Assembly (NCBI GenBank): GCA_030655715.1
Contig: JAUSPR010000188.1
Coordinates: forward strand, 1 to 17,567
DNA length: 17,567 nt
Direction: 5' to 3'
From: Thermoplasmata archaeon
GTDB taxonomy: Archaea; Thermoplasmatota; Thermoplasmata; SG8-5
Positions 2,572 to 17,567 of this stretch are shown one piece after another; the first letter of the stretch is position 1; each line of letters starts with the position of its first letter. Both the position numbers and the translations under genes were made by a program. The notes beneath the pieces are model-generated. The model was given only the letters and a program-made list of their open reading frames with translations, was not told the DNA's origin and ran no database searches.

Positions 2572-4011
2572 ATGGTCGAACTGGACATTGAGAAATTAAG
2601 GGAAATTGTAGGTAAGGAGAATGTTTCTGACGATATTGCAGATCTTTATGTCTATTCTTCAGACGCTTCAGTTCATCAGGCAATGCCGTCTGTTGTCGTG
2701 CGGCCTGGAAAAACCGAGGAAGTTCAAGAAATATTGCGATATGCCAACCAGAACAAGATTCCGGTGGTTGCACGAGGCGCAGGCTCGGGTATGTCCGGCC
2801 ACGCGGTTCCCATAGACGGCGGAATTGTCCTGGATATGAAGCGTATGAACCGGATACTGGATATCAGACCTGAAGATCTTCTTGTCAAGGTCGAACCAGG
2901 CGTCATCAATGACGAACTGAACAAGGTTCTCAAGCCCCACAATTTCTTCTTCCCGCCCACGCCATCGTCAGGAAACATATGCACCATCGGTGGCATGATA
3001 GGAACCAATGCCTCTGGCAATCGTGCCGTGAAGTACGGCGGTACAAGGGATGCGGTTCTCGGTCTGAAGGTGGTTCTGGCCAATGGAGACCTCGTGACTC
3101 TTGGCACAAATACGAAAACCGATGCCTCAGGCTATCAGCTGGCACGCCTGATTGTTGGCTCTGAAGGCACCCTGGGCATTGTGGTGGAAGCCACATTACT
3201 AATCTCTCCCCTGCCGAAATTTAAGGCCATGGCTGTGGCGAACTTCGATAAACTTGAAGATGCTGGAAATGCAATATCCAAAGTAATGTCATCTGGCATC
3301 ACACCGTCCATGGTAGAGCTAATGGACAATGTTGCAATAACAGCAGTGAATAAAGCGTTAGGGCTTGGGCTGCCAGATGTTTCTGCAATAATCATATTTG
3401 AGTGCAATGGCATGGTGAAAGAGGCTGTTGATTACGAAATGAACGCAATAACAAAGATATGTGAAGTGCATAATGGCAGCGGCATAAAGATGACAGATGA
3501 TCCAAAGGAGATGGCCAGGATTTATGAAGGTCGTAAGAAACTCTTTCCCTCGCTTTCCAGATTCGGAGACGGGCTTGTTTCCACTTCACTGGCTGACGAT
3601 ATGGCTGTTCCTGTATCCAAGATTGCAATAGCTGTCCATGAAATACACGAAATTGCAAAGCGCAACAATGTAGTAATGAGCGCATACGGGCATTGCGGCT
3701 CTGGCCTGATACATACAAAAATTTTAATGGACCCCACAAAGGAGAGCCAGTGGGAAGATGCTAAGAAAGCCGTGGCTGAGACTTATGAATTCGTTAGGTC
3801 AATTGGCGGAACAACATCCGGCGAGCACGGAATCGCCCTTTCCAAAGCACCGGCCATGAAGCTGGAGAGGAAGGACTCGCTTGAAATGATGAGGGCAATC
3901 AAGAGGGCGCTAGACCCGAATAATATACTCAATCCTCACAAAATGATGGACGCGCCTGATGACTGGACAACTGCGACCCGGCTCAGGTACAATGTGAGAG
4001 GTGGTCAGTGA
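2572..4011 (+). CDS. glcD: FAD-linked 2-hydroxyacid dehydrogenase (GlcD / D-lactate dehydrogenase type)
   Basis: This 479-residue flavoprotein of the GlcD/D-lactate dehydrogenase family oxidises a 2-hydroxyacid (lactate, glycolate, malate or 2-hydroxyglutarate are candidates) and passes electrons to an Fe-S partner. The PCMH-type FAD domain shows VVRPG near 44, GAGSGMSGH (69-77), GTNASGN and GSEGTLG (196-202). The C-terminal FAD-oxidase domain keeps the likely metal ligands in GHCGSGLIH (373-381) and GEHG (417-420), but the usual GDGN core reads GSGL. The C-terminus ends with the family's DPNNILNP motif. A TTG eight codons upstream is open, but the ATG at 2572 has a strong GAGGGTGAGG site 5 bases before it. 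The stop overlaps the next start (TGATG). The neighbouring HdrD/GlcF-like protein is the expected electron acceptor. The exact substrate cannot be read from sequence. Confidence 0.88.
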   Translation: MVELDIEKLREIVGKENVSDDIADLYVYSSDASVHQAMPSVVVRPGKTEEVQEILRYANQNKIPVVARGAGSGMSGHAVPIDGGIVLDMKRMNRILDIRPEDLLVKVEPGVINDELNKVLKPHNFFFPPTPSSGNICTIGGMIGTNASGNRAVKYGGTRDAVLGLKVVLANGDLVTLGTNTKTDASGYQLARLIVGSEGTLGIVVEATLLISPLPKFKAMAVANFDKLEDAGNAISKVMSSGITPSMVELMDNVAITAVNKALGLGLPDVSAIIIFECNGMVKEAVDYEMNAITKICEVHNGSGIKMTDDPKEMARIYEGRKKLFPSLSRFGDGLVSTSLADDMAVPVSKIAIAVHEIHEIAKRNNVVMSAYGHCGSGLIHTKILMDPTKESQWEDAKKAVAETYEFVRSIGGTTSGEHGIALSKAPAMKLERKDSLEMMRAIKRALDPNNILNPHKMMDAPDDWTTATRLRYNVRGGQ

Positions 4012-5069
4012 TGGAAGCCAAGAACCTTAAGAAATTCGAGCAAGAAATGAACACCTGCATTCGCTGTGCTTATTGCTCCGAGGAATGTCCAGTCATTGTT
4101 CAGAAAGGTTGGGACACTGATGGCGCCAGGGGAAAAGTTGCCTTGTCATATGGCCTTTTAAGCGGAGACCTGGAGCCCACCCAGTCAATAGCAGACAAGT
4201 TATTCCAATGCACCCTTTGCAGAAACTGCGAGTCCAAATGCCCATCAGGGGTTGAGGTTTGTGACATCATTACCTCGGCCAGGGCGGACCTTGTTGAGAA
4301 GGGTTATGCCAGCGACATTCATAATACTGTAATCAAGAACATCAAGGAAACCGGCAACATATACGGCGATACAGAAGTGATGGCGCCTCTCCAGGAAGGT
4401 GAGGTTCCGCTGTTCGTAGGTTGCCAGTATCTCTCAAGGCCCAACAAGACAAAAAAATACATCAAGATACTGGAGAAGCTTGGCATCAATGTCAAGGTAG
4501 GGCGAGAAATATGCTGTGGCTTTCCAATGGAGGTGCTGGGTTTCAAAGATGACCTAGAGAAGCATAAAGGACAATTCAAGGTCTTATTTCCCCACAAGGA
4601 AGCTATCACTTTGTGCCCCACATGCACCGTGTTCCTAAGGGTGGGACATGATGTGGACGCAAAACATATTCTCCAGATAATACTGGACAAACTTCCAGAA
4701 GCAAATCTGGATATGAAAGTGACATTCCATGACCCTTGTGATTTCTCTAGAGGATTGAAGATAATTGACGAACCGCGCCAGATACTTGAAAAGCTTGGTG
4801 TGGAGGTCGTAGAAATGAAGAATAATAAGGGCAACTCAAGCTGCTGTGGCGGTGGCGGAGGATTACTGATGTCGGATTCCAAGCTCTCGGACGATATTGC
4901 ACTGGCACGCATCCGTCAGGCCATTGACACGGGCGCCGACACGGTAATCACGACCTGCCCTACCTGCGAAACAGTGCTGAAGAAAGCAGCCACCCAGATA
5001 AAGGAACTCGAAGGAAAGGATATAGTGGTCAGAAACATAGAGGATATTATCTGGAAGGGGCTGAAATAG
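4011..5069 (+). CDS. HdrD/GlcF-like Fe-S oxidoreductase (fused HdrC and HdrB modules)
   Basis: This 352-residue protein has an N-terminal ferredoxin module with two [4Fe-4S] motifs (Cys 16/19/22/26 and 67/70/73/77), followed by two complete CCG domains (Cys 138, 168-169, 202/205 and Cys 243, 278-279, 316/319). CCG domains bind the noncubane clusters that cleave disulfides in HdrB. The layout is that of HdrD, GlcF and LldE/LutA-like partners of flavin dehydrogenases, that is, HdrC fused to HdrB. Its gene overlaps glcD by one base, so the two very probably form one complex. A GTG at 4008 is an alternative start; I prefer ATG 4011 with GAGAGGTGG upstream. No membrane segment is seen, so it is probably soluble. 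Because both CCG motifs are intact, it may act on a disulfide and not merely relay electrons. Confidence 0.85.
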   Translation: MEAKNLKKFEQEMNTCIRCAYCSEECPVIVQKGWDTDGARGKVALSYGLLSGDLEPTQSIADKLFQCTLCRNCESKCPSGVEVCDIITSARADLVEKGYASDIHNTVIKNIKETGNIYGDTEVMAPLQEGEVPLFVGCQYLSRPNKTKKYIKILEKLGINVKVGREICCGFPMEVLGFKDDLEKHKGQFKVLFPHKEAITLCPTCTVFLRVGHDVDAKHILQIILDKLPEANLDMKVTFHDPCDFSRGLKIIDEPRQILEKLGVEVVEMKNNKGNSSCCGGGGGLLMSDSKLSDDIALARIRQAIDTGADTVITTCPTCETVLKKAATQIKELEGKDIVVRNIEDIIWKGLK

Positions 5070-5070
5070 A

Positions 5071-6138
5071 ATGGAAAAAATGCATCTCTTTGACCTTGGA
5101 GAATTGCCATATCAGCAGTCCATGCTGATATTCCATTCCCTTGCCAGGATGAATATCGAAGGTCTTGTACTGGTGTCTCCCCAGAACCCATTCATCAGCA
5201 TAGGTTATTTTCAAAATTTGGAAAAAGAGGTGGACGTCGAGTACTGTAAAAAAAAAGGCCTCCCTATATTCAGGCGTGAAGTGGGCGGCGGTACAGTTTA
5301 TCTTGATAAGGACCAGATATTTTATCACACCATCTGGAACAAGAACAATCCAATATTCCCTAAACGGGTGAGTGACATATACAAATTTCTTTCAGTACCG
5401 CCAATAGAAACTTATGGGGAGTTCGGCATCCAGACCAAGTTCAGGGAAGTGAATGACATAGTCACTACCCAGGGCAGGAAAATTGCTGGGCTTGGCGGTG
5501 CAGACATCGATGATAGTATGGTGTTTGTCGGTTCAATGATGATGGACTTCGATTACGAGACCATGAGCAAAGCCATCAAGGTTCCGGATGAGAAATTCCG
5601 TGACAAGGTGTTCAAGACCATCGAGGAGAATGTCACGACTATGAAGCGGGAATTGGACAGATTGCCGCCCAGGCAGATGATTATCGACGAACTGGTGAAG
5701 CGTTACGAAGCCCAGCTTGGAAAGCTCACTCCGGTGAAATTAACCGATGATATTGTTCAAAAAATGACTGAGTTGGCGGTTTGGTTCAACTCACCCGAAT
5801 TCATGTACCGCAAGACACCCCAAGTCCCGAAAGGCGTAAAAATCAAGGAAGGCGTGGAGCTCATCTACGAGATGTACAAGGCCCAGGGTGGCCTAATCAG
5901 GTCCGCGCAGGAAGTGCAGGATAATAGACTAAATGATATAGACCTGTCTGGCGATTTCAGCCTCTATCCAAAAAGAGAACTGGGAGAGCTTGAATCAGCC
6001 CTCAAGGGCACAGACAGGGAGAAGAACGATATCACCTCGACTATTGAAGGATTCTACGAGGGAACCGAGATTGAAACCCCAGGTGTAAAACCAAAAGATA
6101 TCACAAAGGCCATAATGGGGGCTGGCTCAGATGATTGA
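5071..6138 (+). CDS. lplA: Lipoate-protein ligase (LplA-like, with C-terminal accessory domain)
   Basis: This 355-residue ligase attaches lipoate or octanoate to a carrier lysine through an acyl-AMP intermediate. Family motifs are RREVGGGTVYLD (68-79), where the Arg pair and triple Gly hold the lipoyl-adenylate, NDIV (128-131) and GRKIAGLGGA (135-144) with the essential lysine at about K137. After residue 240 there is a domain like the LplA C-terminal domain (LplB in split archaeal enzymes), so catalytic and accessory parts are fused, as in sLpl(AB) of sHdr clusters. The gene starts one base after the HdrD-like gene and overlaps hdrC by 8 bases, which embeds lipoylation inside an Hdr operon. 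The likely target is the GcvH-like carrier at 12188-12622. A GGAAGGGG stretch upstream supports the start. Octanoate versus lipoate preference cannot be told. Confidence 0.88.
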   Translation: MEKMHLFDLGELPYQQSMLIFHSLARMNIEGLVLVSPQNPFISIGYFQNLEKEVDVEYCKKKGLPIFRREVGGGTVYLDKDQIFYHTIWNKNNPIFPKRVSDIYKFLSVPPIETYGEFGIQTKFREVNDIVTTQGRKIAGLGGADIDDSMVFVGSMMMDFDYETMSKAIKVPDEKFRDKVFKTIEENVTTMKRELDRLPPRQMIIDELVKRYEAQLGKLTPVKLTDDIVQKMTELAVWFNSPEFMYRKTPQVPKGVKIKEGVELIYEMYKAQGGLIRSAQEVQDNRLNDIDLSGDFSLYPKRELGELESALKGTDREKNDITSTIEGFYEGTEIETPGVKPKDITKAIMGAGSDD

Positions 6139-6619
6139 TTCTAGAAAACTTGATCCAAATTTCAAATATGAAGTGGGAGAGGAAATCAGCGGTTCGAACA
6201 TCACCAGATGCTTTACCTGCGGAACATGCACGGCTGGCTGCCCTGTCCGGGACATCGATGATAAGTACAATCCAAGAAAGATACTTCGTATGATTATCCT
6301 TGGCATGAGGGAGGAAGTGCTGAGCAGTGATTTTATTTGGCTGTGCTCCACATGCTATACTTGCTATGACCGATGCCCACAAGGGGTTCATATTACCGAT
6401 ATAATGATGGCACTCAGAAACATCGCAGTGAAGGAGGGCCATATTCATCCATCTTTTAAGGAACAAGCTAGGCTCGTAGGAACCTTTGGCAGGCTTTACG
6501 AGGTGGAGGATTTTGACAATAAAAAAAGACAGAAGATGGGCTTGCCACCTGTCAAGAAGCAATTTGACGATGTGAAAGTTATAATTGATAAAACCAGGGT
6601 AAAGGAGTTTGTCAAATGA
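6131..6619 (+). CDS. hdrC: Heterodisulfide reductase subunit C-like ferredoxin protein
   Basis: This 162-residue protein carries two CxxCxxCxxxCP motifs (Cys 27/30/33/37 and 72/75/78/82), the standard HdrC pattern for two [4Fe-4S] clusters that connect HdrA flavin chemistry to the HdrB active site. Length is within the usual HdrC range, and no transmembrane segment (as in HdrE) or fused domain is seen. It overlaps the ligase by 8 bases and hdrB by 4 bases (ATGA), which implies translational coupling. Family assignment is secure. Whether the partner substrate is CoM-S-S-CoB is doubtful, because no methanogenesis genes are present and a lipoyl carrier is encoded nearby. Confidence 0.9.
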   Translation: MIDSRKLDPNFKYEVGEEISGSNITRCFTCGTCTAGCPVRDIDDKYNPRKILRMIILGMREEVLSSDFIWLCSTCYTCYDRCPQGVHITDIMMALRNIAVKEGHIHPSFKEQARLVGTFGRLYEVEDFDNKKRQKMGLPPVKKQFDDVKVIIDKTRVKEFVK

Positions 6620-7548
6620 AATATGCACTATTCCTGGGATGTACAATTCCTATAAGAGGCCAGAATTACGAGATATCCGCACGGAAGGTTGCAGAAGCCT
6701 TGGGCATGGAGTTTGTCGATATTGAAGAATTTGGATGTTGCGGTTTTCCTGTGAAATCCACAGATGCAAAGGCGACAACACTTCTTGCAGCACGCAATCT
6801 GGCTTTTGCCTCCAGGGAGGGGCTGGAAATATGCACTCTCTGCAATGCCTGCACAGCTGTTCTGAGCGGGGCCGCCAAGAAGCTTGACAATGATGAGAAA
6901 TTGAGGAACATTATCAATGAGGAATTGAAAGAAATAGGTCTTGAGTACAAGCCAGGCGTTAAAGTAAGGCATTTCTCAAGAATATTGTTCGAGGATTTCG
7001 GACCGGAAATAATTTCAAAGACAGTCAAGGCCGATATGAGTGATTTCTCTTTTTCAATCCATTACGGATGTCATTACCTTCGCCCCCATGATATGTATGA
7101 TGGGTTCGATAATCCCGAGAACCCAGTTACCGTTGAAAAGCTGACAGAGGCCACAGGAGCCAGGGTTCAGGATTACAAGGGCAAGTTGGAATGCTGTGGT
7201 GGCGCAATTCTCGGAGTTGACCAGGATATCGCCCTAAGAATGGCTGGAAAGAAGCTGGGCAATGTAACTTCAAATAATGTTGATGCCCTGATTACTATTT
7301 GCCCATTCTGCACTATCATGTATGAAGATAATCAAAAAAAGATTGAGGAAGTTTTGGAGAAGGAGTTCAATCTCCCAGTACTATATTATCCGCAGGTTCT
7401 AGGATTGGCCATGGGCATAGACCCGAAAGAACTTGGATTCAGATTAAATAAGGTGAAAACCAAAGACCTTCTTCAAAAATTTGAGGATGCTAACCCTCCA
7501 GAAACTTCAGGTTCAAATGAGCCAGTAACACAGGAGGCCATCCAATGA
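6616..7548 (+). CDS. hdrB: Heterodisulfide reductase subunit B-like protein (two CCG domains)
   Basis: This 310-residue protein has two full CCG motifs: Cys 9, 41-42, 73/76 and Cys 152, 193-194, 229/232, matching the CxnCCxnCxxC signature that binds noncubane [4Fe-4S] clusters in HdrB. These clusters reduce or oxidise a disulfide bond. Both are intact, unlike some HdrB paralogues that have lost one. AAGGAG at 6602-6607 is well placed for the ATG, and the start overlaps hdrC by 4 bases. The last 30 or so residues are polar and probably disordered. In this setting the disulfide could be the lipoyl group on the GcvH-like carrier instead of a free heterodisulfide; that is inference. Confidence 0.9.
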   Translation: MKYALFLGCTIPIRGQNYEISARKVAEALGMEFVDIEEFGCCGFPVKSTDAKATTLLAARNLAFASREGLEICTLCNACTAVLSGAAKKLDNDEKLRNIINEELKEIGLEYKPGVKVRHFSRILFEDFGPEIISKTVKADMSDFSFSIHYGCHYLRPHDMYDGFDNPENPVTVEKLTEATGARVQDYKGKLECCGGAILGVDQDIALRMAGKKLGNVTSNNVDALITICPFCTIMYEDNQKKIEEVLEKEFNLPVLYYPQVLGLAMGIDPKELGFRLNKVKTKDLLQKFEDANPPETSGSNEPVTQEAIQ

Positions 7549-10500
7549 GCAAAGTTGGTGCAGTATTGGTGGTTGGTGGCGGGATTGGTGGTATGCAATC
7601 TGCTCTGGATCTTGCCAATTCAGGATTTAAAGTATATCTCTTGGAAGAGAAGCCTGCCATCGGTGGCGTCATGGCCCAGCTGGACAAGACATTTCCGACG
7701 AATGACTGCTCGATGTGCATAATGTCCCCGAAATTGGTAGATGTTGGCAGGCATCCCAATATTGAACTCATCACCTATGCTGACCTGGAAGAGGTTACGG
7801 GCGACGTAGGAAATTTCAAAATCAGGGTGAAAAAGAAGGCAGGATTCGTTGATATGGAAAACTGTACTGGCTGTGGTGAATGCGCCCTTGTTTGCCCGGT
7901 TAATCTTGCATCAGAATTCGAAGAGGGCCTTACAACCAGAAATGCCATTTACAAATTATACCCGCAGGCCATACCAAACGTTTTCACCATTGAAAAGAAC
8001 GGGACATCTCCGTGCAAAATCGGATGTCCAGCTAGTGTAAATGTCCATGCATATGTTGCACTTACTTCACAGGGAAAATTTGACGAGGCACTGACCGTTG
8101 TAAGACGGACACTTCCATTCCCATCAATATGTGGGAGAACATGCCATCACCCCTGCGAAAGCGAGTGCAATAGAAAAGAGATTGACGAGCCAATCGCCAT
8201 CAGGCCAATAAAACGTTTTCTTATTGACAGGGCCAGGGAGAACAATGAAGATTCACTGGAACCTATATCTCCAGACAAAGATGAAAAAGTCGCAATAGTG
8301 GGCGCGGGACCAGCTGGTCTGGCTTGCGGTGCAAAGCTTCTTGAGATGGGTTACCATGTAACTATATTTGACAGCTCGCCCGAGCCAGGCGGCCTAATGA
8401 CCAATTGCCTTCCAGATTATCGTATCCCGCGAGACATTGCCATGTATGATGTTAAACGACTTCTGGACCACGGCCTCGAAGTAAAAAGCGGTGTCAAGAT
8501 TGGAAGAGATATTACAATGGACGATCTGAGGAAAAATCATGACGCCATATTCATTGCCATTGGAGCACAGGGTTCTGCACCTCTGGACATTCAGGGCGTT
8601 GACCTTCAGGGTGTTGCCTATGGTATGGATTATCTCATAGACTCAAAGAACGGGAATAAACCAGATTATCAGGGTAAGAAGGTAGCAGTCATTGGAGGCG
8701 GAAATGTAGCCATTGATTGTGCCCGTGCGGCTCTTCGTTTCGGTGCCGATGTGAGTATTGTATATCGACGCGCAAGGGAGCAAATGCCTGCCTATGAGTG
8801 GGAAATAGAGGAAGCTGAAGAGGAAGGCATACATTTCCATTACCTGGCTTCTCCCAATAAAATTGCCGGAGAAGATGGCAAGGCTATCGGTCTTGAGTGC
8901 ACCAAAATGGAGCTGGGAGAACCGGATGAGAGCGGCAGGAGACGCCCCATTCCGATTGAAGGGTCGGAGTTCATGCTGGACATAGACACAGTAATAATTG
9001 CCATCGGCCAGAAACCAGAAACAGTCGGTTTCGAAGAACTCAAAATGACCTCACGCGGAACAATAGAAATTGATGCTATCACATTGCAAACCAATGTTCC
9101 AGGTATTTTTGCAGGTGGCGATATCACAAGAGGGCCAGCATCGATAATCGAGGCGGTTGCCGATGCCAATGAGGCAGTAATATCAATTGACAGGTATCTC
9201 AAAGGAGAAAACTTGAATGAAAATCGTTGCATTGATCATATTGTTGCGGATTTGCCTGAGGGCAATATAAAAATCCAGCATAGAATAAACCCCACCATGT
9301 CAGATGTGGCGGAAAGGGTGAGTTGTTTCGCAGAAGTGGAGCATTGCTTCACCGAGGAGCAGGCTGTTGCCGAGGCATCCAGATGTCTGAACTGCGCAGT
9401 TTGTTCCGAATGCCTTCTTTGCGTGGACGCTTGCGAGGCAAATTGCATAACTCATGATATGATGGATACATTCATAGAATTTGAAGTTGGCTCCATCATT
9501 CTGGCTCCAGGGTTCGAGAAATTTAATGCACGACTAAAGTCTGAATATGGCTATGGCAGGCATGCCAATGTGATAACTTCCCTGGAGTTCGAGCGAGTTT
9601 TATCTGCATCTGGACCTTTCGAGGGGCATGTTGTTAGGCCATCGGATCGCAAGGAACCGAAGAAAATTGCATGGCTCCAATGCGTCGGTTCAAGGGACCA
9701 GGAATTTGGCAATAATTACTGTTCTTCGGTTTGCTGTACTTATGCTATAAAAGAAGCTGTGATAGCCAAAGAGCATGTATCCACCATAGAACCAACAATA
9801 TTCTTCATAGACATGAGAACCTTTGGAAAGGGATTCGAAGCTTATTACAACAGGGCGAAGGACGAGTACGGTGTTAGATTCATAAGATGCAGAATATCCG
9901 AAATCAATGAAGACCCAATCACCAAAAACCTGCTCATCAAGTATGAAACAGAGAATGGAGAACTTATTGCTGAAGAATTTGACTTGGCTGTTCTCTCAAT
10001 TGGTCTTCAACCAACCGATGGAGTTAGGAAACTTGCGGGCAAGCTGGGTGTAGAACTGAACAAATGGGGTTTCTGTAAGACTGGTGAATTTACACCAGTG
10101 GAAACCACGCGGCCTGGCATTATGGCCTGCGGCGCATTCTCCGGTCCAAAGGACATACCCGAGACAGTTATGGAAGCCTCTGGAGCAGCAGCGAAGGCCG
10201 GCGGATTGATATCATCGGAACGTTTTACAGCAGTTCAAAAAAGGGAGTATCCCCCAGAGAGGGATGTTTCAGGTGAGGCTCCGCGAATTGGTGTTTTCAT
10301 CTGTCACTGTGGAATTAACATAGGGGCTTATGTGGATGTACCATCCCTTGTGGATTATGCAAAGACCTTGCCATATGTTGTATATGCCGAGGAGAACCTG
10401 TACACCTGCTCTCAGGATACCCAGAAGAAGATTGTGGAGGCCATCAATGAGCATGGGCTGAACCGCGTCATAGTATCATCATGCACACCAAGAACTCATG

Positions 10501-11945
10501 AACCATTGTTCCAGGAGACAATTCGGGAAGCTGGACTCAATCCGCATCTTTTTGAGATGGCAAACATCAGGGACCAATGCTCCTGGGTGCACATGAACAA
10601 CAATGAAATTGCCACCAGCAAAGCAGCAGATCTCATTAGAATGGCAGTTGCCAAGGCCAAGCTGAAACAGCCACTTCCGTTACAAACCGTGGAAATAATC
10701 CAGAAGGGACTGGTTATTGGTGGCGGTTTAGCTGGCATGATATCTGCTCTGTCCATAGCAGAGCAGGGATTCCCTGTTCATTTAGTAGAGAAGGAAAAAC
10801 AGCTTGGTGGAAACCTTCGCAACATACATTTCACACTGGATAGCGATGATGTCCACTCATACATGAACACACTCATAAATGAGGTTGAGAACGAACCGCT
10901 TATAACTGTCCACAAGGATGCCAGGATAAATGAGGTCAAGGGTTTCATAGGTAATTTCGTCACCACATTGGGAAATGAGGCAGGAAGTACTGAAATCAAT
11001 AGCGGCATAATAATCGTGGCCACTGGCGCCGAGGAATCCAAGCCCAAGGAATATCTCTATGGTACGGATGAGAGGGTAGTAACTCAGTTGGGATTCGAAA
11101 AGATGATATCTGATGGCCAGGACCTTGGCCAAAAGACAATAGTTATGATACAGTGCGTGGGTTCCAGGGAGAAAGATCGACCGTATTGCAGTCGTGTCTG
11201 CTGTGCTGATGCCGTAAAGAACTCGATAAGGACGAAGAAAAGACATCCAGATGCCCAGGTATTCATCCTTTACCGTGACATGAGAACTTACGGATTTAAA
11301 GAGGAGTACTACGAGAAGGCCAGGGAGTTGGGGGTCATATTCATCAGATACGATGAGGGTGACAAGCCAGTGGTTACAAAAGGTGCAGATGGAATAGAAG
11401 TCCTGACCAAGGACCACATATTAAGCGAACCATTCCTGATAAATGCCGATGTGCTGGTACTTAGTTCGGCTATAGTGCCCAGGGCAGATACCGAGGAACT
11501 GGCTCAGATGCTCAAGGTCCCTTTGAACGAGGACAGGTTCTTCCTGGAAGCTCATGTCAAGCTAAAGCCAGTCGATTTCGCAACAGAAGGCATATTTCTA
11601 GCTGGAATGGCCCACTCCCCAAAGACCATAACCGAAACAATATCCCAGGCATATGCTGCCGCATCCCGTGCCACAACCATAATTTCTATGAAAGAGCATG
11701 TGACCGAGGCCACCATAGCATCTGTGACTGACAATCTATGCAGTGGGTGCGGTTTATGTGTCGAGGCATGTCCATATTCTGCCATCGAATTAACTGAAAA
11801 GGGCATAGCCAATGTAAACTCCGCACTCTGCAAGGGCTGTGGACTATGCAATGCAACATGCCGTTCAGGCGCAATCCAGCAACATGGATTTACTGACCAC
11901 CAGATGCTCTTCATGATAAAAGGCTCGCTGAATGAGATGTTCTGA
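7545..11945 (+). CDS. hdrA: Giant HdrA: tandem HdrA with an inserted GltD/NfnB-like NAD(P)H module
   Basis: At 1466 residues this is over twice the size of methanogen HdrA (about 650). Order of parts: FAD loop GGGIGG (11-16); first half of the inserted ferredoxin (Cys 107/110/113/117); then, where the second cluster should follow, a GltD/NfnB-type module with its own N-terminal Cys set (157/161, 196/200/204/208), an FAD site VGAGPAG (252-258) and a second nucleotide site IGGGNVA (383-389); a Cys-rich stretch (614-634, eight Cys) resuming HdrA; the HdrA core CVGSRD (713-718) with YCSSVCC. A second HdrA begins at about 914 with the N-terminal domain (CHCG 920-923, C955, SSCT 978-981), FAD loop GGGLAG (1059-1064), CVGSRE (1204-1209) and two terminal [4Fe-4S] motifs (1399-1409, 1429-1439). 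AGGAGG at 7532-7537 and a 4-base overlap with hdrB fix the start. The protein likely bifurcates or confurcates electrons with NAD(P)H. Confidence 0.88.
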   Translation: MSKVGAVLVVGGGIGGMQSALDLANSGFKVYLLEEKPAIGGVMAQLDKTFPTNDCSMCIMSPKLVDVGRHPNIELITYADLEEVTGDVGNFKIRVKKKAGFVDMENCTGCGECALVCPVNLASEFEEGLTTRNAIYKLYPQAIPNVFTIEKNGTSPCKIGCPASVNVHAYVALTSQGKFDEALTVVRRTLPFPSICGRTCHHPCESECNRKEIDEPIAIRPIKRFLIDRARENNEDSLEPISPDKDEKVAIVGAGPAGLACGAKLLEMGYHVTIFDSSPEPGGLMTNCLPDYRIPRDIAMYDVKRLLDHGLEVKSGVKIGRDITMDDLRKNHDAIFIAIGAQGSAPLDIQGVDLQGVAYGMDYLIDSKNGNKPDYQGKKVAVIGGGNVAIDCARAALRFGADVSIVYRRAREQMPAYEWEIEEAEEEGIHFHYLASPNKIAGEDGKAIGLECTKMELGEPDESGRRRPIPIEGSEFMLDIDTVIIAIGQKPETVGFEELKMTSRGTIEIDAITLQTNVPGIFAGGDITRGPASIIEAVADANEAVISIDRYLKGENLNENRCIDHIVADLPEGNIKIQHRINPTMSDVAERVSCFAEVEHCFTEEQAVAEASRCLNCAVCSECLLCVDACEANCITHDMMDTFIEFEVGSIILAPGFEKFNARLKSEYGYGRHANVITSLEFERVLSASGPFEGHVVRPSDRKEPKKIAWLQCVGSRDQEFGNNYCSSVCCTYAIKEAVIAKEHVSTIEPTIFFIDMRTFGKGFEAYYNRAKDEYGVRFIRCRISEINEDPITKNLLIKYETENGELIAEEFDLAVLSIGLQPTDGVRKLAGKLGVELNKWGFCKTGEFTPVETTRPGIMACGAFSGPKDIPETVMEASGAAAKAGGLISSERFTAVQKREYPPERDVSGEAPRIGVFICHCGINIGAYVDVPSLVDYAKTLPYVVYAEENLYTCSQDTQKKIVEAINEHGLNRVIVSSCTPRTHEPLFQETIREAGLNPHLFEMANIRDQCSWVHMNNNEIATSKAADLIRMAVAKAKLKQPLPLQTVEIIQKGLVIGGGLAGMISALSIAEQGFPVHLVEKEKQLGGNLRNIHFTLDSDDVHSYMNTLINEVENEPLITVHKDARINEVKGFIGNFVTTLGNEAGSTEINSGIIIVATGAEESKPKEYLYGTDERVVTQLGFEKMISDGQDLGQKTIVMIQCVGSREKDRPYCSRVCCADAVKNSIRTKKRHPDAQVFILYRDMRTYGFKEEYYEKARELGVIFIRYDEGDKPVVTKGADGIEVLTKDHILSEPFLINADVLVLSSAIVPRADTEELAQMLKVPLNEDRFFLEAHVKLKPVDFATEGIFLAGMAHSPKTITETISQAYAAASRATTIISMKEHVTEATIASVTDNLCSGCGLCVEACPYSAIELTEKGIANVNSALCKGCGLCNATCRSGAIQQHGFTDHQMLFMIKGSLNEMF

Positions 11946-11990
11946 ATAGGTATGCAGATGAAGCAGTAAGAAATAAATCTTAGTGATAAA

Positions 11991-12191
11991 GGCCGGGAAC
12001 CCCCCGCTTTTTAAGCCGGGGATGATAGGCCATTTACACGAATATTACAAAAAGAGATCCGCCATGGGCCGTGTATATATCAACACATGAAATCAAAGCC
12101 ATTTGGCTTTGATAAATTAGGTACATGGCTACCTGTGTAAACTTCCAGCCCTGGCAACAAACTCCAGCTCCTTTAGGGGCTGGTAGTTTAC
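11991..12191 (+). repeat. Structured non-coding repeat, copy 2 (IS200/IS605 right-end or omega-RNA-like)
   Basis: This is the second copy of the 40-231 repeat, in the same orientation. Hairpin a is CCCCG/CGGGG within 12001-12021, different in sequence from copy 1 but in the same place. The closing stem is GCCATG 12061-12066 with CATGGC 12124-12129. Hairpin b is GTGT 12071-12074 with ACAC 12083-12086, and hairpin c is ATCAAAGCC 12092-12100 with GGCTTTGAT 12105-12113. The 3' block 12137-12191 is almost identical to copy 1. It fills the space between the converging hdrA and gcvH-like genes, and its terminal TTTA supplies the stop codon of the latter. There is no coding potential of note. Copy 2 lets the folding be tested by covariation, which supports a conserved RNA or single-stranded DNA structure. 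Confidence 0.6.
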
Positions 12192-12622
12192 TGTTTCTTG
12201 CTGTCAATTTCGGCAATTTCCTTATGAACCCAATCTACAAGCGCGACGCCTTGCATAAGATTAGCGAGTTCTCCATCCAGGTCGGAAGGTTTCAGAATCA
12301 TTATCCAGCCGTTTCCGTATGGATCTTTGTTGATGAGGGTGCAATCATCCTCCAGGTCTTCGTTTACCGACAGAATCTCGCCGGATAGCGGAGAAACAAA
12401 CTTGCCAACCCATTTGGCGGACTGGATTTTCCCGCAGGTCTCTCCCTGTTCAACGTCATCGCCCTCGAATGGTAGGTCGATGTACGTGGTGTCACCAGAG
12501 TTTTTCTGATAAAAATCATTCATTCCGACCTTCACGGTGCCGTCATCCAGCTTTCTCACCCAGGCATAATCCTTATGATAAAATAACTCATCAGGCATAT
12601 TGAATCCTTCTATATCTGCCAT
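12188..12622 (-). CDS. gcvH: GcvH-like lipoyl carrier protein (LbpA-like)
   Basis: This 144-residue protein has the GcvH fold pattern: H16-xx-YAWV early, GMNDF (33-37), then the lipoyl hairpin in which K70 in QSAKWVGKFVSP aligns with the modified lysine of GcvH (classically ESVKA...YSP), then PLSGEI, NEDLEDD and GNGWIM. The classic ESVKA is replaced by QSAKW. In sHdr sulfur oxidisers, GcvH-like proteins called LbpA are lipoylated and serve the Hdr-like complex rather than glycine cleavage. Here no gcvT or gcvP is visible, while two LipS-type synthases lie directly upstream and a ligase sits in the hdr operon, so an LbpA role is more likely. GGTGAT before the ATG supports the start. The stop codon lies in the end of repeat copy 2, so the C-terminal tail may have been altered by its insertion. 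Confidence 0.88.
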   Translation of the reverse strand: MADIEGFNMPDELFYHKDYAWVRKLDDGTVKVGMNDFYQKNSGDTTYIDLPFEGDDVEQGETCGKIQSAKWVGKFVSPLSGEILSVNEDLEDDCTLINKDPYGNGWIMILKPSDLDGELANLMQGVALVDWVHKEIAEIDSKKQ

Positions 12623-12667
12623 ATAATCACCACTATTCGCGATGCCAATAATGTTTATTAAGCTTTC

Positions 12668-13696
12668 TCAAGACCAAAGCTGTTTTTTAATCAGAATAAT
12701 GTCTTCCTCTTCAGGGGAAAAGGCATAGTTCCTTATCTCTGGCCCGGGCACACAGTTTGCATATGGTCTGGTGCAGGCAACGACCCCATCTCTTCCAGCA
12801 CACCCGCTGGTTGTGAAGGGACTTCCTTTCCTGATTATGTTGTCCAGCTCTTCTTCCGGCAGACCGAAACCGTTCAGTCTCCCGGAAATATCAAACTTGA
12901 AATTGTTCGCCTTGCATATGCCCTCATCAATCAGGAATCTGGCAAGCTGAACCCTCCTGTATTGACCGATTGGCGGTTGCGGATGTTCAGCCAGCAGAGA
13001 ATCCCTTTCCGGGAAGAAAGAGAAAAGGTGGGTGCCCCCTCCCATGTCCCGAACCTTCTGAATTACCTCTATCATCTGGCACTCTGTCTCACCCAGCCCC
13101 ACTATCAGATGGGCGCCGGCCATGTCTTTGCCAAAGACCTCAATTGCCTCCTCAAGGCATTGCCAGTAACGCTCCCATCTGTGCGGGCCGCCTACCCCGC
13201 TGCCCCTGTATTTTTCGAACAGTTCCGGTGTGGCACAATCTATTGCAACGTCGACCATATCTGCCCCATCAGCCTTGTATTTGACAAGGTCTTCCTTTGT
13301 GGTAATAGTGGGCGTTATCAGAAGAGACACTGGCAGGTCCAGCCTTTCCTTCAACCTGAGTATTACTTGGGACGTATCTGACCTAGCTTTTCCGTTGGTG
13401 ACCATGGAGATGCACACCCGTTTGACGCGGTTTCCGATTTTGGACATACTGTCTATCATATCATCCCATGAGTATGTTGGCCAATCCACCCGGATAAAGC
13501 TCTTGTCGCCGTATTCTCCATGCCGTCTCGAGGATAGGCCGCAGTACGCGCAGCTGCCTGCACACCCGTCGTCATATGTGAGAAGTACATTAACACATGG
13601 TGATGTGGCATTCCTGTAGAATCGCCCCTTCTTGAAATCCATTGTCATGGCTGCGGCCAGGCTTGTTCTCAAATATTCCGGGGATTCACTTGTCAT
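12668..13696 (-). CDS. Radical SAM protein, LipS1/LipS2-type lipoate synthase component
   Basis: This 342-residue radical SAM enzyme has the CxxxCxxC motif at Cys 45/49/52 and a C-terminal Cys set at 299/308/315 (C-x8-C-x6-C) that could hold an auxiliary cluster as sulfur donor. In Thermococcus, two radical SAM proteins, LipS1 and LipS2, together insert the two sulfurs of lipoate, replacing LipA; pairs of such genes are found beside lipoyl carriers in sHdr clusters. This gene is followed by the GcvH-like gene (45-base gap) and overlaps the other radical SAM gene by 11 bases, which fits that pair well. The ribosome binding site is excellent (AAAGGAGGTG before the ATG). I cannot say which of the two is LipS1 and which LipS2. 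A BioB-like or other radical SAM role is the alternative. Confidence 0.78.
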   Translation of the reverse strand: MTSESPEYLRTSLAAAMTMDFKKGRFYRNATSPCVNVLLTYDDGCAGSCAYCGLSSRRHGEYGDKSFIRVDWPTYSWDDMIDSMSKIGNRVKRVCISMVTNGKARSDTSQVILRLKERLDLPVSLLITPTITTKEDLVKYKADGADMVDVAIDCATPELFEKYRGSGVGGPHRWERYWQCLEEAIEVFGKDMAGAHLIVGLGETECQMIEVIQKVRDMGGGTHLFSFFPERDSLLAEHPQPPIGQYRRVQLARFLIDEGICKANNFKFDISGRLNGFGLPEEELDNIIRKGSPFTTSGCAGRDGVVACTRPYANCVPGPEIRNYAFSPEEEDIILIKKQLWS

Positions 13697-14636
13697 CTTT
13701 CACCTCCTTTATGGCAAACGGAACCGAGCAGCATGTCCTCTGCCATTCGACTGTCAAACCATAATATTCTGCCCTTTTAATAGCTTCATCAGAGGGTATG
13801 GCCATCCTGTTCACGCCGCAATCCACGGCCAGCACATCGGTTTCCGGGCTGCGCCTGTCACGCGCGCATCCCAAGGATATTGGGATATCTGGCATTTCAA
13901 GCCTTGCCGTGGCAATTATCCTGGCTATATCTTCCGGGGATGGTGGGACGATGTCACACATGGGCGTCCCGCTGAGAGGCATCAGTGACACTATGACCAA
14001 AGCTTCTGGTCCATGCCTCTTTATCATCTGAATAGCTTCATATTCACCAGTTATCCGCCCATAATCCAATCCGACCACGATATGGGGCGCTGTGGGAATG
14101 CCAGCATGCTTGAGCGACTTCAGGGTGGATTCTATGGCCTCGGGGCCCGTATCCAGATGGAGCACGTTTTTCATTGTCTCGGCGTCGCCCACGACATCAA
14201 TCAGCGCCTGGTCGATGCCAGCCTCTTTCATGCGGCATGCCAGGTCCGGCCCGATTATTCCACCGTGCACCGAGATGTGAAGGCCTGTGCTTTCCTTGAC
14301 AGTCTTGATTGCCTCCAGAAAATCATCCCAGGGAAGTGTGCCATCCTTGCCGAACCCGCCTGTTATGAGGCATCCGATGTCCCCTTGTTTCTCAAGTTCA
14401 AGGCATGTATCTATCAGTTTTTGGGGTGTGGAGACATCAATCATTGGCTTCAGGAGTCTGGCCTTGCAGTGTTCGCAGAGAAGTTCGCAACTGCTGCCGG
14501 TAATCGAGATTGCAGAATATCTGCCCCATTTATCATGATATCGGAACATGCCGGGATGGTAGAATATTATCTTTTTTCCGTGTATTCTCCAAGAGGCTTC
14601 TCTGGCTTTTGCCATCAGTTCCTCAAGCTCGCTCAT
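13686..14636 (-). CDS. Radical SAM protein, second LipS1/LipS2-type lipoate synthase component
   Basis: This 316-residue protein has a radical SAM CxxxCxxC motif at Cys 50/54/57 (CELLCEHC), preceded by the IIFYHPGMF segment, and further conserved-looking cysteines at 257, 273 and 302-303 near the C-terminus that may bind a second cluster. It resembles the biotin-synthase-like branch to which LipS proteins belong. With the gene at 12668-13696 it would convert an octanoylated carrier to lipoyl. The frame remains open to a GTG at 14684 and an ATG at 14666, but those codons lie in the GC-rich palindromic tract at 14637-14753 and give a low-complexity peptide; ATG 14636 is the natural family start. 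It is the first gene of the minus-strand operon ending in the lipoyl carrier. The family call is good; the specific LipS number is unresolved. Confidence 0.76.
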   Translation of the reverse strand: MSELEELMAKAREASWRIHGKKIIFYHPGMFRYHDKWGRYSAISITGSSCELLCEHCKARLLKPMIDVSTPQKLIDTCLELEKQGDIGCLITGGFGKDGTLPWDDFLEAIKTVKESTGLHISVHGGIIGPDLACRMKEAGIDQALIDVVGDAETMKNVLHLDTGPEAIESTLKSLKHAGIPTAPHIVVGLDYGRITGEYEAIQMIKRHGPEALVIVSLMPLSGTPMCDIVPPSPEDIARIIATARLEMPDIPISLGCARDRRSPETDVLAVDCGVNRMAIPSDEAIKRAEYYGLTVEWQRTCCSVPFAIKEVKDDK

Positions 14637-14753
14637 CGTTCCGCCCCGAGCCGAAGGCGAGCGCATAGCAGGGTCGAACACCACAGACCCGAAGGGCCGA
14701 GGAACGGAGAAGTTTCTAATTCTCCTGAACCACCAGGGCTTGGCGTAGTTTTC
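14637..14753 (+). other. GC-rich palindromic tract (possible structured RNA or IS605-like remnant)
   Basis: This intergenic tract is much richer in G+C than its surroundings in its first 60 bases and has nested inverted repeats: CGTTCC 14637-14642 with GGAACG 14701-14706, enclosing GCC-GAA-GGC, GGGTC 14671-14675 with GACCC 14686-14690, and CCC-GAA-GGG at 14688-14696. It is followed by GGAGAA 14706-14711 with TTCTCC 14720-14725 and ends in GTAGTTTTC (14745-14753), which is similar to the TAGTTTAC end of the two repeats. It separates the lipoate operon from hsdR and may also contain the promoter of the former. Identity is uncertain. Confidence 0.35.
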
Positions 14754-14787: not shown

Positions 14788-17567
14788 TCATTCTTCGTCC
14801 CCATGTTTATCTTCAATTTTTGGTTTCTTTTTCTTCTTGAATTCAAAGTAGATAAGGTCGAACAGATTATTTTTTACCCTGGCTCTTAATTTATCGTTAT
14901 CTACCATTTTCTTGTAGAAGCTCATGTTTCCATTCAAAAGTTTGGTAATTTCCTCATCGAAAAAATTATCGAATATCGCAAGAACATTCTGCCTGGAATT
15001 GTGCTCGATTTTATCGATTAAGTCTAGGTTATTCATCAGGTTATCTTTTAGCCTTCCCAGGAATATTTTATCATCGTCTGTAAAATCCGTTCCAAACGCA
15101 TCGTTTAGTTCCTGCACAATCTTTGAAAGTTTCTCATAAGTTTCCGGTTTATACATTCCAGCAGTGTCAGATATTGGTTTAAGTTCGCCCTCTGGGTTGA
15201 GGATTATTTCTTTTTCGCCTTTCTTGACAATTTTATAGGAATCCATATCCACATCTTGGAGGACATTGAAAGGCAATGGATTATTGATTGTCGGAAGTTT
15301 CTTCGTCAGAAATTTGTTGAAGATGTACATTTTTTCAAGTCTTATATCTGAAAACGGTATTAACTGGGATAGGAACGAATAGATGTTTTGATATCTTCGA
15401 AGCGCCTTCTTGAATTCTATTTGGTCTTCCTTTGGTTTTTTCTTGAATTCTGCAACAAAAGGGGTCAAAATTGTATGTAATTTTGATTGGGGTGCATCTT
15501 TCTTGTAGTTCTTTACAAAATTTTCGATGTCGTCCTCCTCAAATATCTGAAAATCAAGAAGCTTGTCCATCAATTCATACAATTTATGCGGGTCGGTCCC
15601 TTCTATCAAGAATGTTGATTCATAGTATGGCTGGAATGCCTTTTCGATAACGTCCGTAGGATTGGCGAAATCAAGAACAAGGGTATCATTCTTGTTAGAA
15701 TATATCCTGTTAACTCTGCTAAGGGTCTGCACCGCCGCGACGCCGTTCAATCTCTTGTCAACATACATGGTGTGAAGTAATGGCTGGTCGAATCCAGTCT
15801 GGTATTTATTTGCGACAATGAGTATTTTGTAATCGTTCTCGGCATAGGCGTTTTCAATGGTTTTTCTCGGTGGAAGGTTATTCATTTTGTCCTCGGTGTA
15901 TTCCTGCTCGTCGTGAATTACCGTGCCAGTAAATGCAACCAGCGTTTTGATGTTGTGGCCTTCCTCTCTGAGGTATTTGTCAAATGCCTTCTTGTATAAG
16001 ACCGCATGAAGCCTCGATCTTGTTACAACCATCGCTTTCGCTTTTCCCCGAATTTTATGAGAACTGGAATTTATGAAGTGGTCAACCATTATCTCAGTTT
16101 TTCTGCCGATGGCAACCGGATGTTTCTCTACGAAATTTCTGAGAAGTTTTTTCGCTTTTGATTCGTCGTATTCAGGGTCATCCTCGATTTTCTTGACAAG
16201 TTTAAAATAAGTTTCATAGGATAGGTAGTGTTTCAATACATCCAGGATAAAGCCTTCCTCTATTGCCTGTTTCATGGAATACAAATGATATGGGTGATAC
16301 TGGCCATGCTTATCCACAACCCCGAACATTTCCAGCGTTTTGTTTTTCGGGGTGGCCGTGAAAGCAAAGAAGCTAACGTTTGGCAATTTTTTTGAGGCTT
16401 CGATTTCTCTGAGAATTTCTTCATCTATTTCGTCCATATCCTCGCTGTCCAGGGCCTCGGCTTCTTCAAGACTGCTGGTTGCCAGGACTTGCTTGAGTTT
16501 CTTGGACATGGAGCCGGATTGGGATGAGTGAGCCTCGTCGATTATGACCGCATATTTTCTCTGCGGAAATTCCTCCATGCCTTCCAAAATATGCGGAAAT
16601 TTCTGTATAGTGGTTACCACGATGTTGCTACCAGAAAATATTGCCTCGAATAACTGTTCTGAATTTTTATCGATGACTTCAACGATCCCCTTGACCTTCT
16701 CTATCTGCTTAATCTGGTCTTGCAGTTGTTTGTCGATTACCCTTCTATCTGAAACGACAATGACCATGTCATAAATCCGGTTGTCTGCTTCATCAAAGCG
16801 ATTTATCAACCCGTGCGAGAGCCAGGCAATCGTTTTGGTCTTTCCTGAACCAGCACTATGCTGGATGAGAAAATTGACACCCGGATTACAATCCTTCAGA
16901 AGATTGTTGACGCAGTCCAGTTGGTGGAATCTCGGGAATATCGGTCGTTCGGAATTGTTTTCCTTGTCCTTTTCCATGTAGATGAAGTTTGAAACCAATT
17001 TTGAAAGCTGGTTGATTTGAAGCATCTCCTGGTACAGATACGAAGTTTTGTAGTCGTTCTCATTCATGGGTTCCGGGTTGTCCATGCCCAAATTGAACGG
17101 AAGGAATTTTGTCTTCTCCTTTTCCAGGCGCGTGGCCATGTAGGCTTTCTCGTCGCTCATGGCGAAATGGACCAAACATCTGTCGAATATCAGCTCTCGC
17201 GGGTCCCTATCATTCTTGTACTGCTCGATGGCCTTTTCAACACCCTGAGAGAAGGTATCTTTCAGTTCGATGGTGAGAATCGGCAGGCCGTTGATGAAAA
17301 TCACAATGTCAAGGCGGTTCCCCATTTCCCTATTCTGATATTCCAGCTCGTCAACCACCGAGAAGATGTTCTTGTCGAATTTCTCGAACAGGTCAGGATT
17401 CTTTCTGTTGTTCGGCTTAGGGTAGAACAAGGCAAAATCGCAGCCCACATCCTTGAAACCGTTTCTGAGAATGTGTATCGTACCCTTGCGCTCGATCTCC
17501 TTGACCAACCGCACCAGGAATTTCTCGTCTGCCTGGTCCTTGTAAATACTGTCTAACTTTTGCCATT
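14788..17567 (-). CDS. hsdR: Type I restriction endonuclease R subunit (5' end outside window)
   Basis: About 925 residues are visible and the frame stays open to the right edge (WQKLDSIYKD... precedes the GTG at 17514), so the true start lies beyond the window. Seen in order: a PD-(D/E)xK nuclease motif with D in NRLDIVIF and E-x-K in TIELKD (about 17258-17310), helicase motif I SAGSGKTKT (near 16840-16860), motif II DEAH (near 16535-16545), motif III FTATP (near 16350-16365) and motif VI with the Arg pair in SRVNRIYS (near 15695-15720), then a C-terminal helical region. This is the translocating, cleaving subunit of a type I restriction system. HsdM and HsdS are not in the window and may lie to the right. 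It has no obvious link to the Hdr-lipoate genes and is probably the edge of a defence region. Confidence 0.93.
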   Translation of the reverse strand, partial: WQKLDSIYKDQADEKFLVRLVKEIERKGTIHILRNGFKDVGCDFALFYPKPNNRKNPDLFEKFDKNIFSVVDELEYQNREMGNRLDIVIFINGLPILTIELKDTFSQGVEKAIEQYKNDRDPRELIFDRCLVHFAMSDEKAYMATRLEKEKTKFLPFNLGMDNPEPMNENDYKTSYLYQEMLQINQLSKLVSNFIYMEKDKENNSERPIFPRFHQLDCVNNLLKDCNPGVNFLIQHSAGSGKTKTIAWLSHGLINRFDEADNRIYDMVIVVSDRRVIDKQLQDQIKQIEKVKGIVEVIDKNSEQLFEAIFSGSNIVVTTIQKFPHILEGMEEFPQRKYAVIIDEAHSSQSGSMSKKLKQVLATSSLEEAEALDSEDMDEIDEEILREIEASKKLPNVSFFAFTATPKNKTLEMFGVVDKHGQYHPYHLYSMKQAIEEGFILDVLKHYLSYETYFKLVKKIEDDPEYDESKAKKLLRNFVEKHPVAIGRKTEIMVDHFINSSSHKIRGKAKAMVVTRSRLHAVLYKKAFDKYLREEGHNIKTLVAFTGTVIHDEQEYTEDKMNNLPPRKTIENAYAENDYKILIVANKYQTGFDQPLLHTMYVDKRLNGVAAVQTLSRVNRIYSNKNDTLVLDFANPTDVIEKAFQPYYESTFLIEGTDPHKLYELMDKLLDFQIFEEDDIENFVKNYKKDAPQSKLHTILTPFVAEFKKKPKEDQIEFKKALRRYQNIYSFLSQLIPFSDIRLEKMYIFNKFLTKKLPTINNPLPFNVLQDVDMDSYKIVKKGEKEIILNPEGELKPISDTAGMYKPETYEKLSKIVQELNDAFGTDFTDDDKIFLGRLKDNLMNNLDLIDKIEHNSRQNVLAIFDNFFDEEITKLLNGNMSFYKKMVDNDKLRARVKNNLFDLIYFEFKKKKKPKIEDKHGDEE

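Follow-up and report, generated by a model that had tools for sequence, protein, structure and literature searches.

Here, we describe a gene cluster on contig JAUSPR010000188.1 of a Thermoplasmata archaeon (assembly GCA_030655715.1; the whole stretch of 17,567 nucleotides is called the window), in which a GlcD-type flavin adenine dinucleotide (FAD) 2-hydroxyacid dehydrogenase, a GlcF-like iron-sulfur protein and the Hdr proteins HdrA, HdrB and HdrC are encoded together with a GcvH-like lipoyl carrier, LbpA, and the enzymes predicted to lipoylate it. From the genes and their motifs, we propose that (D-)malate is oxidized by GlcD and GlcF, with the lipoyl disulfide of LbpA serving for electron exchange between these two and HdrABC, a reading whose chances we judge to be even. 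More tentatively, and with doubt outweighing belief, a large and mostly undescribed family of lipoyl proteins could stand in for coenzymes M and B (CoM/CoB) in anaerobic archaea and bacteria, so that HdrABC, partnered by NAD(P)H or a hydrogenase, would exchange electrons via a lipoyl disulfide with a malate/fumarate node served by GlcDF as a D-malate dehydrogenase or by an SdhA/SdhB-like fumarate reductase.

Organization of the cluster

Six genes, glcD-glcF-lpl-hdrC-hdrB-hdrA, form an operon on the forward strand (2572-11945), with four of its five junctions overlapping by 4 to 8 bp and the other having a single-base gap. They encode the putative D-malate dehydrogenase GlcD (2572-4011), a GlcF/HdrD-like iron-sulfur protein (4008-5069), the lipoate-protein ligase Lpl(AB), composed of LplA and an LplB-type C-terminus (5071-6138), HdrC (6131-6619), HdrB (6616-7548) and an HdrA of 1466 amino acids (7545-11945). 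Oriented towards this operon on the reverse strand (12188-14684) are the genes for LbpA (12188-12622) and the lipoyl synthases LipS2 (12668-13696) and LipS1 (13686-14684). Family scans bear out all of the gene families named in the initial annotation (HdrA, HdrB, HdrC, an HdrD-like protein, a GlcD-type dehydrogenase, a carrier, a ligase and two LipS-type synthases), as well as its placement of the ligase within the hdr operon, where lpl and hdrC overlap by 8 bp; its end of the cluster at 14636 falls on an inner ATG of lipS1, which runs to 14684. Several of these names are best NCBIfam matches under the curated cut-offs (bits against cut-off: LipS2, 223.5/270; LipS1, 212.3/230; HdrB, 257.4/345; HdrC, 131.1/160; GlcD, 404.1/568; Lpl, 141.8/280), and GlcF lies under every cut-off. 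The genome comprises 1.73 Mb in 287 contigs and is 73% complete.

The window holds the genes and motifs of an HdrABC, namely a flavoprotein HdrA, an HdrC and an HdrB with two complete C..CC..CxxC motifs for non-cubane clusters, and GlcF has two such motifs as well. Residues 154-555 of HdrA are an insertion that matches NAD(P)H modules of the GltD type, such as that of NfnA, and other stretches match methanogen HdrA; of its GxGxxG motifs, we interpret those at 11, 253 and 1059 as flavin-type and that at 384 as NAD(P)-type. Methanogen HdrABC (5odc, 8rvu, 7bkb) likewise combines HdrA, HdrC and an HdrB with two non-cubane clusters, but in the window the electron-partner module is built into HdrA, and a lipoyl disulfide is expected in place of CoM-S-S-CoB.

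The nearest solved structure to GlcD, at 282 bits, is that of LctD from the bifurcating lactate dehydrogenase, followed by glycolate oxidase, and the active site of GlcD keeps the metal and base residues as judged by motif comparison with the accessible descriptions of human D-2-hydroxyglutarate dehydrogenase (D-2-HGDH) and mouse LDHD. The GlcD fold and catalytic residues are shared with LctBCD lactate dehydrogenase and GlcDEF (7qh2, 9qgz), and a GlcF-like partner with GlcDEF, whereas the window is without EtfAB (LctBC), no separate GlcE gene was found among its genes, and GHCGSGLIH replaces GHxGDGNxH. This substitution of D and N by S and L (or V) is common to G002, G008 and G009 (relatives at the level of genus, family and order, respectively) and to a WOR-3 locus (L066), and the GlcDEF family cut-offs were not reached (GlcD, 404 bits vs 568; GlcF, 90 vs 333). 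At L036, L037, L039, L040, L050, L086, L090, L096 and L117, the GlcD-like protein next to the carrier lacks the EH pair and the histidines that bind the metal; in several cases, a UbiA-type or prenyl-synthase-type gene is found nearby.

Carrier family and conservation of its neighborhood

LbpA, with a predicted lipoyl lysine at K70, belongs to a carrier family distinct from GcvH. A search of 250 genomes of the class gave 11 matches in nine genomes at 204-241 bits, the next among the matches listed scoring 125; ten genomes reached via other loci had one carrier each (177-214 bits), and nine of these ten had further matches at 88-130 bits, G255 being without any. In a carrier tree of 98 rows (quick method, few columns, built without bacterial and Sulfolobales sHdr-LbpA and without Culexarchaeia GcvH), 32 GcvH formed one side of a branch and six sHdr-type carriers a separate clade (support 100 in both cases), with the window carrier outside either and clustering with its two nearest relatives (support 98). 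A Trp directly follows the lipoyl lysine (K-W type) in all 91 distinct matches of at least 140 bits, 78 of which came from one scan that recruited 65 of them by an N-terminal pattern lacking the Trp. K-W rows overall do not form a single group in the tree (six changes). Matches under 140 bits comprised the six sHdr-type carriers, all K-W, five of K-F type, eight lacking the lysine, and 57 in which the lysine precedes A, S, T or N. The K-F carriers adjoin a ligase and mostly also LipS2 (L037:8502-9005, L042:1564-2016, L045:1063-1497, L046:10706-11176, L050:9019-9465). Dihydrolipoyl dehydrogenase exceeded its cut-off in one of six genomes (G002), which is uninformative.

The cluster set recurs in G002, G008 and G009 with altered gene order, and so goes beyond a chance arrangement. 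To compare neighborhoods (within 8 kb), the best 80 of 164 carrier relatives from a species-genome scan, G002, G008 and G009 among them, were set against 20 canonical GcvH loci of the same class, two of which (L139, L146) had an unrecognized GcvH frame and were taken from the locus center; contigs were often short, so the absence of a gene near a carrier carries little weight. The best 80 include archaea (Thermoplasmata, other Euryarchaeota titles and two Thermoproteota metagenome-assembled genomes) and at least eight groups of bacteria (Deltaproteobacteria/Desulfobacterota, WOR-3, TA06, Zixibacteria, Cloacimonadota, Sumerlaeota, Aerophobetes, Stahlbacteria and unclassified). Lpl (53/80, Fisher p 2e-8), LipS (40/80, p 1e-5), HdrB or HdrC (16/80, p 0.037), GlcF (13/80, p 0.065) and HdrA (14/80, p 0.066) were each found near carriers and at 0/20 GcvH loci, as were Flx/MvhD-type (17/80) and hydrogenase-type genes (9/80), LarA (8/80), fumarase (6/80), OsmC (8/80) and HisD (37/80). 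Any Hdr or Glc gene occurred at 30 of the 80 carrier loci and both at 10, the latter in Thermoplasmata, WOR-3, Zixibacteria, Deltaproteobacteria, Sumerlaeota, Aerophobetes and others; among the 43 loci without HisD, 23 had any Hdr, 17 Glc, 10 both and 13 neither. The link to 2-hydroxyacid oxidation put forward in the initial annotation holds insofar as it recurs in unrelated lineages. The carrier family is also found beside fumarase and SdhA/SdhB-like genes, hydrogenase, aldehyde dehydrogenase or HisD, and is therefore not bound to GlcD, nor to Hdr, at every locus.

Additional loci in G036, G026, G005, G012 and G013 hold more carrier copies, accompanied by Glc-like, Hdr or Lpl genes, and a phylum search around the Thermoproteota genome G250 gave a match in 15 of 29 genomes, including several K-W carriers with few neighbors on short contigs. 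At 7/80 loci, a geranylgeranyl-reductase-like FAD protein is encoded between lpl and lipS1; it was considered as a LipT-like helper of LipS and set aside, as LipT is described differently in its paper. LipS1 had no match when searched against plasmids.

The most direct sign of this kind of domain meeting HdrC is provided by single chains in which a response-regulator receiver, a GCV_H domain and a 4Fe-4S (HdrC) domain are fused (L078:10459-11781, L161:8232-9584), the GCV_H part of which groups with K-W carriers in the tree. At L161, similar receiver-lipoyl-like proteins without HdrC adjoin the fusion. Proteins of 307-329 amino acids with a Cys-rich N-terminus and a lipoyl-like domain without the lysine occur at L160 (8868-9791 and 9894-10883), near HdrA and MvhD, and at L078 (18297-19223).

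Neighboring genes point to malate as the probable substrate

On the reverse strand next to glcD lies a malate dehydrogenase (MDH) of the lactate dehydrogenase (LDH)/MDH family (1368-2249; the listed open reading frame extends to 2330), which scores 319 bits with the malate dehydrogenase model NF004863 (cut-off 283) and stays under the cut-offs of L-LDH models. Just past the left end of the window, outside the view of the initial annotation, are genes for a LarA racemase, a fumarase and a protein with three AMP-binding_C domains (triple AMP-binding_C protein). The window opens with 73 bp (1-73) that are 98.6% identical to the final 73 bp of C166, a contig of the same genome on which larA and the fumarase alpha and beta genes are followed, at the contig end, by the triple AMP-binding_C gene; the C166-window junction aligns inside a G002 contig on both sides (96% over 278 bp and 92% over 321 bp). 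Among the genomes having the cluster (this one and the three relatives), larA is beside it in 4/4 and fumarase beside larA in 3/4. A single G002 contig holds hdrB-hdrC-glcF-glcD, MDH, a regulator, the triple AMP-binding_C protein, larA and larA2; G008 has fumarase-larA-triple domain-regulator at the end of a contig; and one G009 contig has larA-triple domain-regulator-MDH-OsmC-LipS2-LipS1, its larA being adjoined by fumarase alpha. No LarA was found in G003, a congener without the carrier, and G001 has a weaker LarA. Malic enzyme and an SdhA-like flavoprotein (best model TfrA, under cut-off) occur at related loci.

All 13 scanned LarA (eight from the 80 loci and five from relatives, two of them truncated; a second G009 copy lay outside the NCBIfam scan) matched the LarAH6 malate racemase model best, at 270-381 bits, and for the LarA of this genome the 355 bits with that model, NF052593, was the highest score among all models. 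In malate racemases, two pocket positions are mostly occupied by H/Q and K, according to the accessible text of PMC11770544; an H-K pair was present in 13/14 LarA, the 14th being cut by a contig end, with positions placed by motif, not structure. The putative malate racemase LarA resembles LarAH6/Mar2 malate racemase (PMC7583248, PMC11770544, as far as their available text describes it) in best-scoring family and, by motif placement, probably in the H-K pair of the pocket, and differs in lying under the curated cut-off. Taken together, the neighboring genes point to malate over lactate or glycolate. All three had been named as substrates to test in the initial annotation, and the larA-fumarase-MDH surroundings lower lactate and glycolate as first choices.

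Other features of this region include the regulator (278-1357, forward strand), conserved and named winged-helix-type from a weak Pfam match (PF13545, 0.00027, under cut-off), which adjoins MDH also in G002, G008 and G009. The triple AMP-binding_C protein, without an acyl-CoA synthetase catalytic domain, lies between larA and the regulator (L207:8410-9711, reverse; L208:6475-7911, forward; L209:2718-4007, reverse; L210:8671-10008, reverse), and was recognized by Pfam in three of these four and in L210 by its similar start. At the other end of the window, 14788-17565 on the reverse strand encodes a large helicase-type protein resembling the type I restriction subunit HsdR, which runs out of the window. 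Transfer RNA and Rfam scans of the window gave no matches.

Points against the proposal and alternative explanations

Several observations weigh against a malate-LbpA-Hdr route. Regarding the substrate, every LarA score is under the curated NF052593 cut-off of 500 bits, and the D-2-HGDH paper, in its accessible part, describes GlcD/D-LDH pockets as suiting lactate or glycolate, not malate, which counts against a simple carry-over of that fold's specificity to malate. A pocket Lys tried as a dicarboxylate mark was present in 7/7 LarA/MDH-linked GlcD, but proved unspecific, being found in 13/26 background GlcD (26 of 30 loci of the class were readable; Fisher p 0.027 vs 7/7), and was not counted. 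Many GlcD-like neighbors at other loci lack the catalytic metal and base residues, and in G009 glcD, carrier and hdr are on a different contig from MDH and larA. Regarding the carrier, the congeners G001 and G003 (85 and 89% complete) are without it, GlcD enrichment alone is nonsignificant (13/80 vs 1/20, Fisher p 0.29, the sole GlcD match in the GcvH loci being weak at 24% identity), and 37 of the 80 loci, with Deltaproteobacteria, Desulfobacterota-type or Pseudomonadota titles, carry HisD with neither Hdr nor Glc in the 8-kb neighborhood, 35 of them having Lpl. The lipoyl-like domain fused to HdrC is without the lysine and hence unable to carry lipoate; it may instead have a docking or sensing role. 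At HisD loci such as L070:8355-9647, in genomes of Deltaproteobacteria type, the histidinol dehydrogenase gene adjoins those for the K-W carrier, Lpl and LipS2.

The LarA scores and the published description of the pockets, together with LctD and glycolate oxidase as nearest solved relatives of GlcD, would suit the same machinery working on lactate, glycolate or glycerate, with LarA and the MDH-like protein as lactate racemase and lactate dehydrogenase. We think this unlikely, though a real contender, as MDH passes the malate dehydrogenase cut-off and fails the LDH ones, all 13 scanned LarA favor the LarAH6 over the LarA model, 13/14 LarA have the motif-placed H-K pair, and fumarase adjoins larA.

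A different division of labor, in which electrons pass between GlcDF and HdrABC directly or via ferredoxin and LbpA acts elsewhere, for example in reducing an OsmC-type peroxidase or in holding an acyl group in a dehydrogenase reaction, is about as unlikely in our view. Reduction of Ohr by lipoylated proteins is known. OsmC-family genes near the carrier, which besides the 8/80 loci occur at four loci of G008, G036 and G026, are consistent with such a role, as are the HisD and aldehyde dehydrogenase neighbors, some of them without Hdr; the position of lpl within the glc-hdr operon, the HdrC-lipoyl fusions and the co-occurrence of Hdr, Glc and carrier in several phyla speak for LbpA acting between GlcDF and HdrABC.

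We consider it very improbable that the cluster is a variant of sHdr sulfur oxidation, in which the Hdr complex would oxidize LbpA-bound sulfane sulfur to sulfite. The gene order of sHdr systems is hdrC1-B1-A-hyp-C2-B2. In the accessible parts of their descriptions (PMC6067878, PMC10332631), sHdr-LbpA systems also tie a GcvH-like carrier to Hdr, Lpl(AB) and LipS1/LipS2, a linkage found in the window by best matches under curated cut-offs; the window differs in its 1466-amino-acid HdrA with an NAD(P)H module, its one HdrB/HdrC pair and its linked GlcDF and MDH. LbpA of sHdr systems has two conserved Cys, one near each end and absent in some archaea (PMC6067878, available text), whereas Cys in the window LbpA lies only in the middle of the protein. 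Four sHdr-type clusters of the same class (L189-L192) have two HdrC and, where readable, two HdrB-type proteins, a carrier and Lpl; the double hdrC/hdrB set is present in L190-L192, against one hdrC, one hdrB and one hdrA in the window, their HdrA measure 341-364 amino acids, and DsrE (Pfam) is present in both scanned clusters (L190, L192). Their carriers are of K-W type. DsrE, TusA and rhodanese were not found among the family matches of the window, though a single TusA elsewhere in the genome, like the shared carrier type (K-W in 6/6 sHdr-type carriers), Lpl and LipS1/LipS2, is in keeping with sulfur oxidation. The large HdrA, the lack of DsrE in the cluster, the single HdrB and HdrC and a carrier outside the sHdr-type clade led us to reject it, and the contrast with sHdr drawn in the initial annotation (a large HdrA, GlcD, and no DsrE/TusA in the cluster) holds against these clusters.

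Finally, we give next to no credence to LbpA being an ordinary glycine-cleavage H protein located here by chance, as its GCV_H Pfam domain and bare passing of one GcvH subfamily cut-off (NF002270, 117.7 vs 117) might suggest, given that the genome encodes a further, canonical GcvH (contig C79) along with two GcvP-family proteins (C151), that the carrier falls outside the GcvH clade and that its Hdr/Lpl surroundings are conserved in relatives. Both refuting conditions named in the initial annotation, a neighborhood not conserved in relatives and a carrier that groups with the GcvH of a GcvPT system and occurs apart from Hdr, were checked and neither came out against it, so that the initial view of an Hdr-associated carrier separate from GcvH stands.

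Proposed mechanism and related systems

According to the available text of PMC10332631, Lpl attaches octanoate or lipoate and LipS2 and LipS1 insert sulfur; in the malate-LbpA-Hdr route, the three would mature a dedicated LbpA, probably lipoylated at K70, which could then serve as a protein-borne disulfide/dithiol carrier between two Hdr-type non-cubane iron-sulfur sites. GlcD would act on a D-2-hydroxyacid, the likeliest being D-malate with oxaloacetate as product, and the electrons would pass by way of GlcF to the lipoyl disulfide, reducing LbpA by a putative thiol transfer. The dihydrolipoyl arm would then be oxidized by HdrB. Through its flavin and integral NAD(P)H module, HdrA may couple this step to NAD(P)H and probably ferredoxin, like methanogen HdrABC with CoM/CoB. 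LarA (malate-racemase type), fumarase and MDH would connect fumarate, L-malate, D-malate and oxaloacetate. The malate/oxaloacetate couple has a potential of about -0.17 V. As that of lipoamide is lower, at -0.29 V (PMC6067878, accessible part), electron flow from malate to LbpA would be uphill unless pushed, a thermodynamic difficulty for the proposed route. Either oxaloacetate would be reduced, or malate oxidation would be driven by ferredoxin in a confurcating HdrA; by analogy with LctD-type lactate dehydrogenase, we lean slightly towards ferredoxin-aided malate oxidation. MDH, LarA and GlcDF could also, as a guess, act as an NADH-LbpA transhydrogenase.

The idea of a GcvH-Hdr disulfide is prior art. 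In the Ehe cluster of Culexarchaeia, HdrA2B2C2, SdhA, CdhA and GcvH are encoded together, and its authors suggested an interaction of the lipoyl disulfide on GcvH with HdrB/HdrA2B2C2, in an organism that lacks full CoM/CoB pathways (PMC9723716, accessible text). Compared by description only, that cluster differs in having a membrane hydrogenase, and GlcDF, LarA, Lpl and LipS are unmentioned in the part of the paper available. Titles and abstract openings in the literature searched, in which subscription papers are scarcely covered, showed no link of a lipoyl carrier to GlcD/GlcF, LarA or malate. What is new here is the substrate clue from the larA/fumarase/MDH neighborhood.

Conclusions

Known uses of lipoic acid are in 2-oxoacid dehydrogenases, glycine cleavage and sHdr sulfur oxidation, and a lipoyl protein dedicated to hydroxyacid/C4-acid redox, if true, would be a further one. 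The in vivo role of malate racemases is named as an important remaining question in PMC7583248 (accessible text), and our proposal, which is accessible to recombinant-protein work, would give LarAH6-type malate racemases a physiological place. The proposal would further provide HdrABC of organisms without CoM/CoB with a disulfide partner, a question left by the Culexarchaeia study as far as its available text goes (PMC9723716), and, on the more tentative reading of the carrier family as a stand-in for CoM/CoB, flavin-based electron bifurcation with HdrABC would extend outside methanogenesis.

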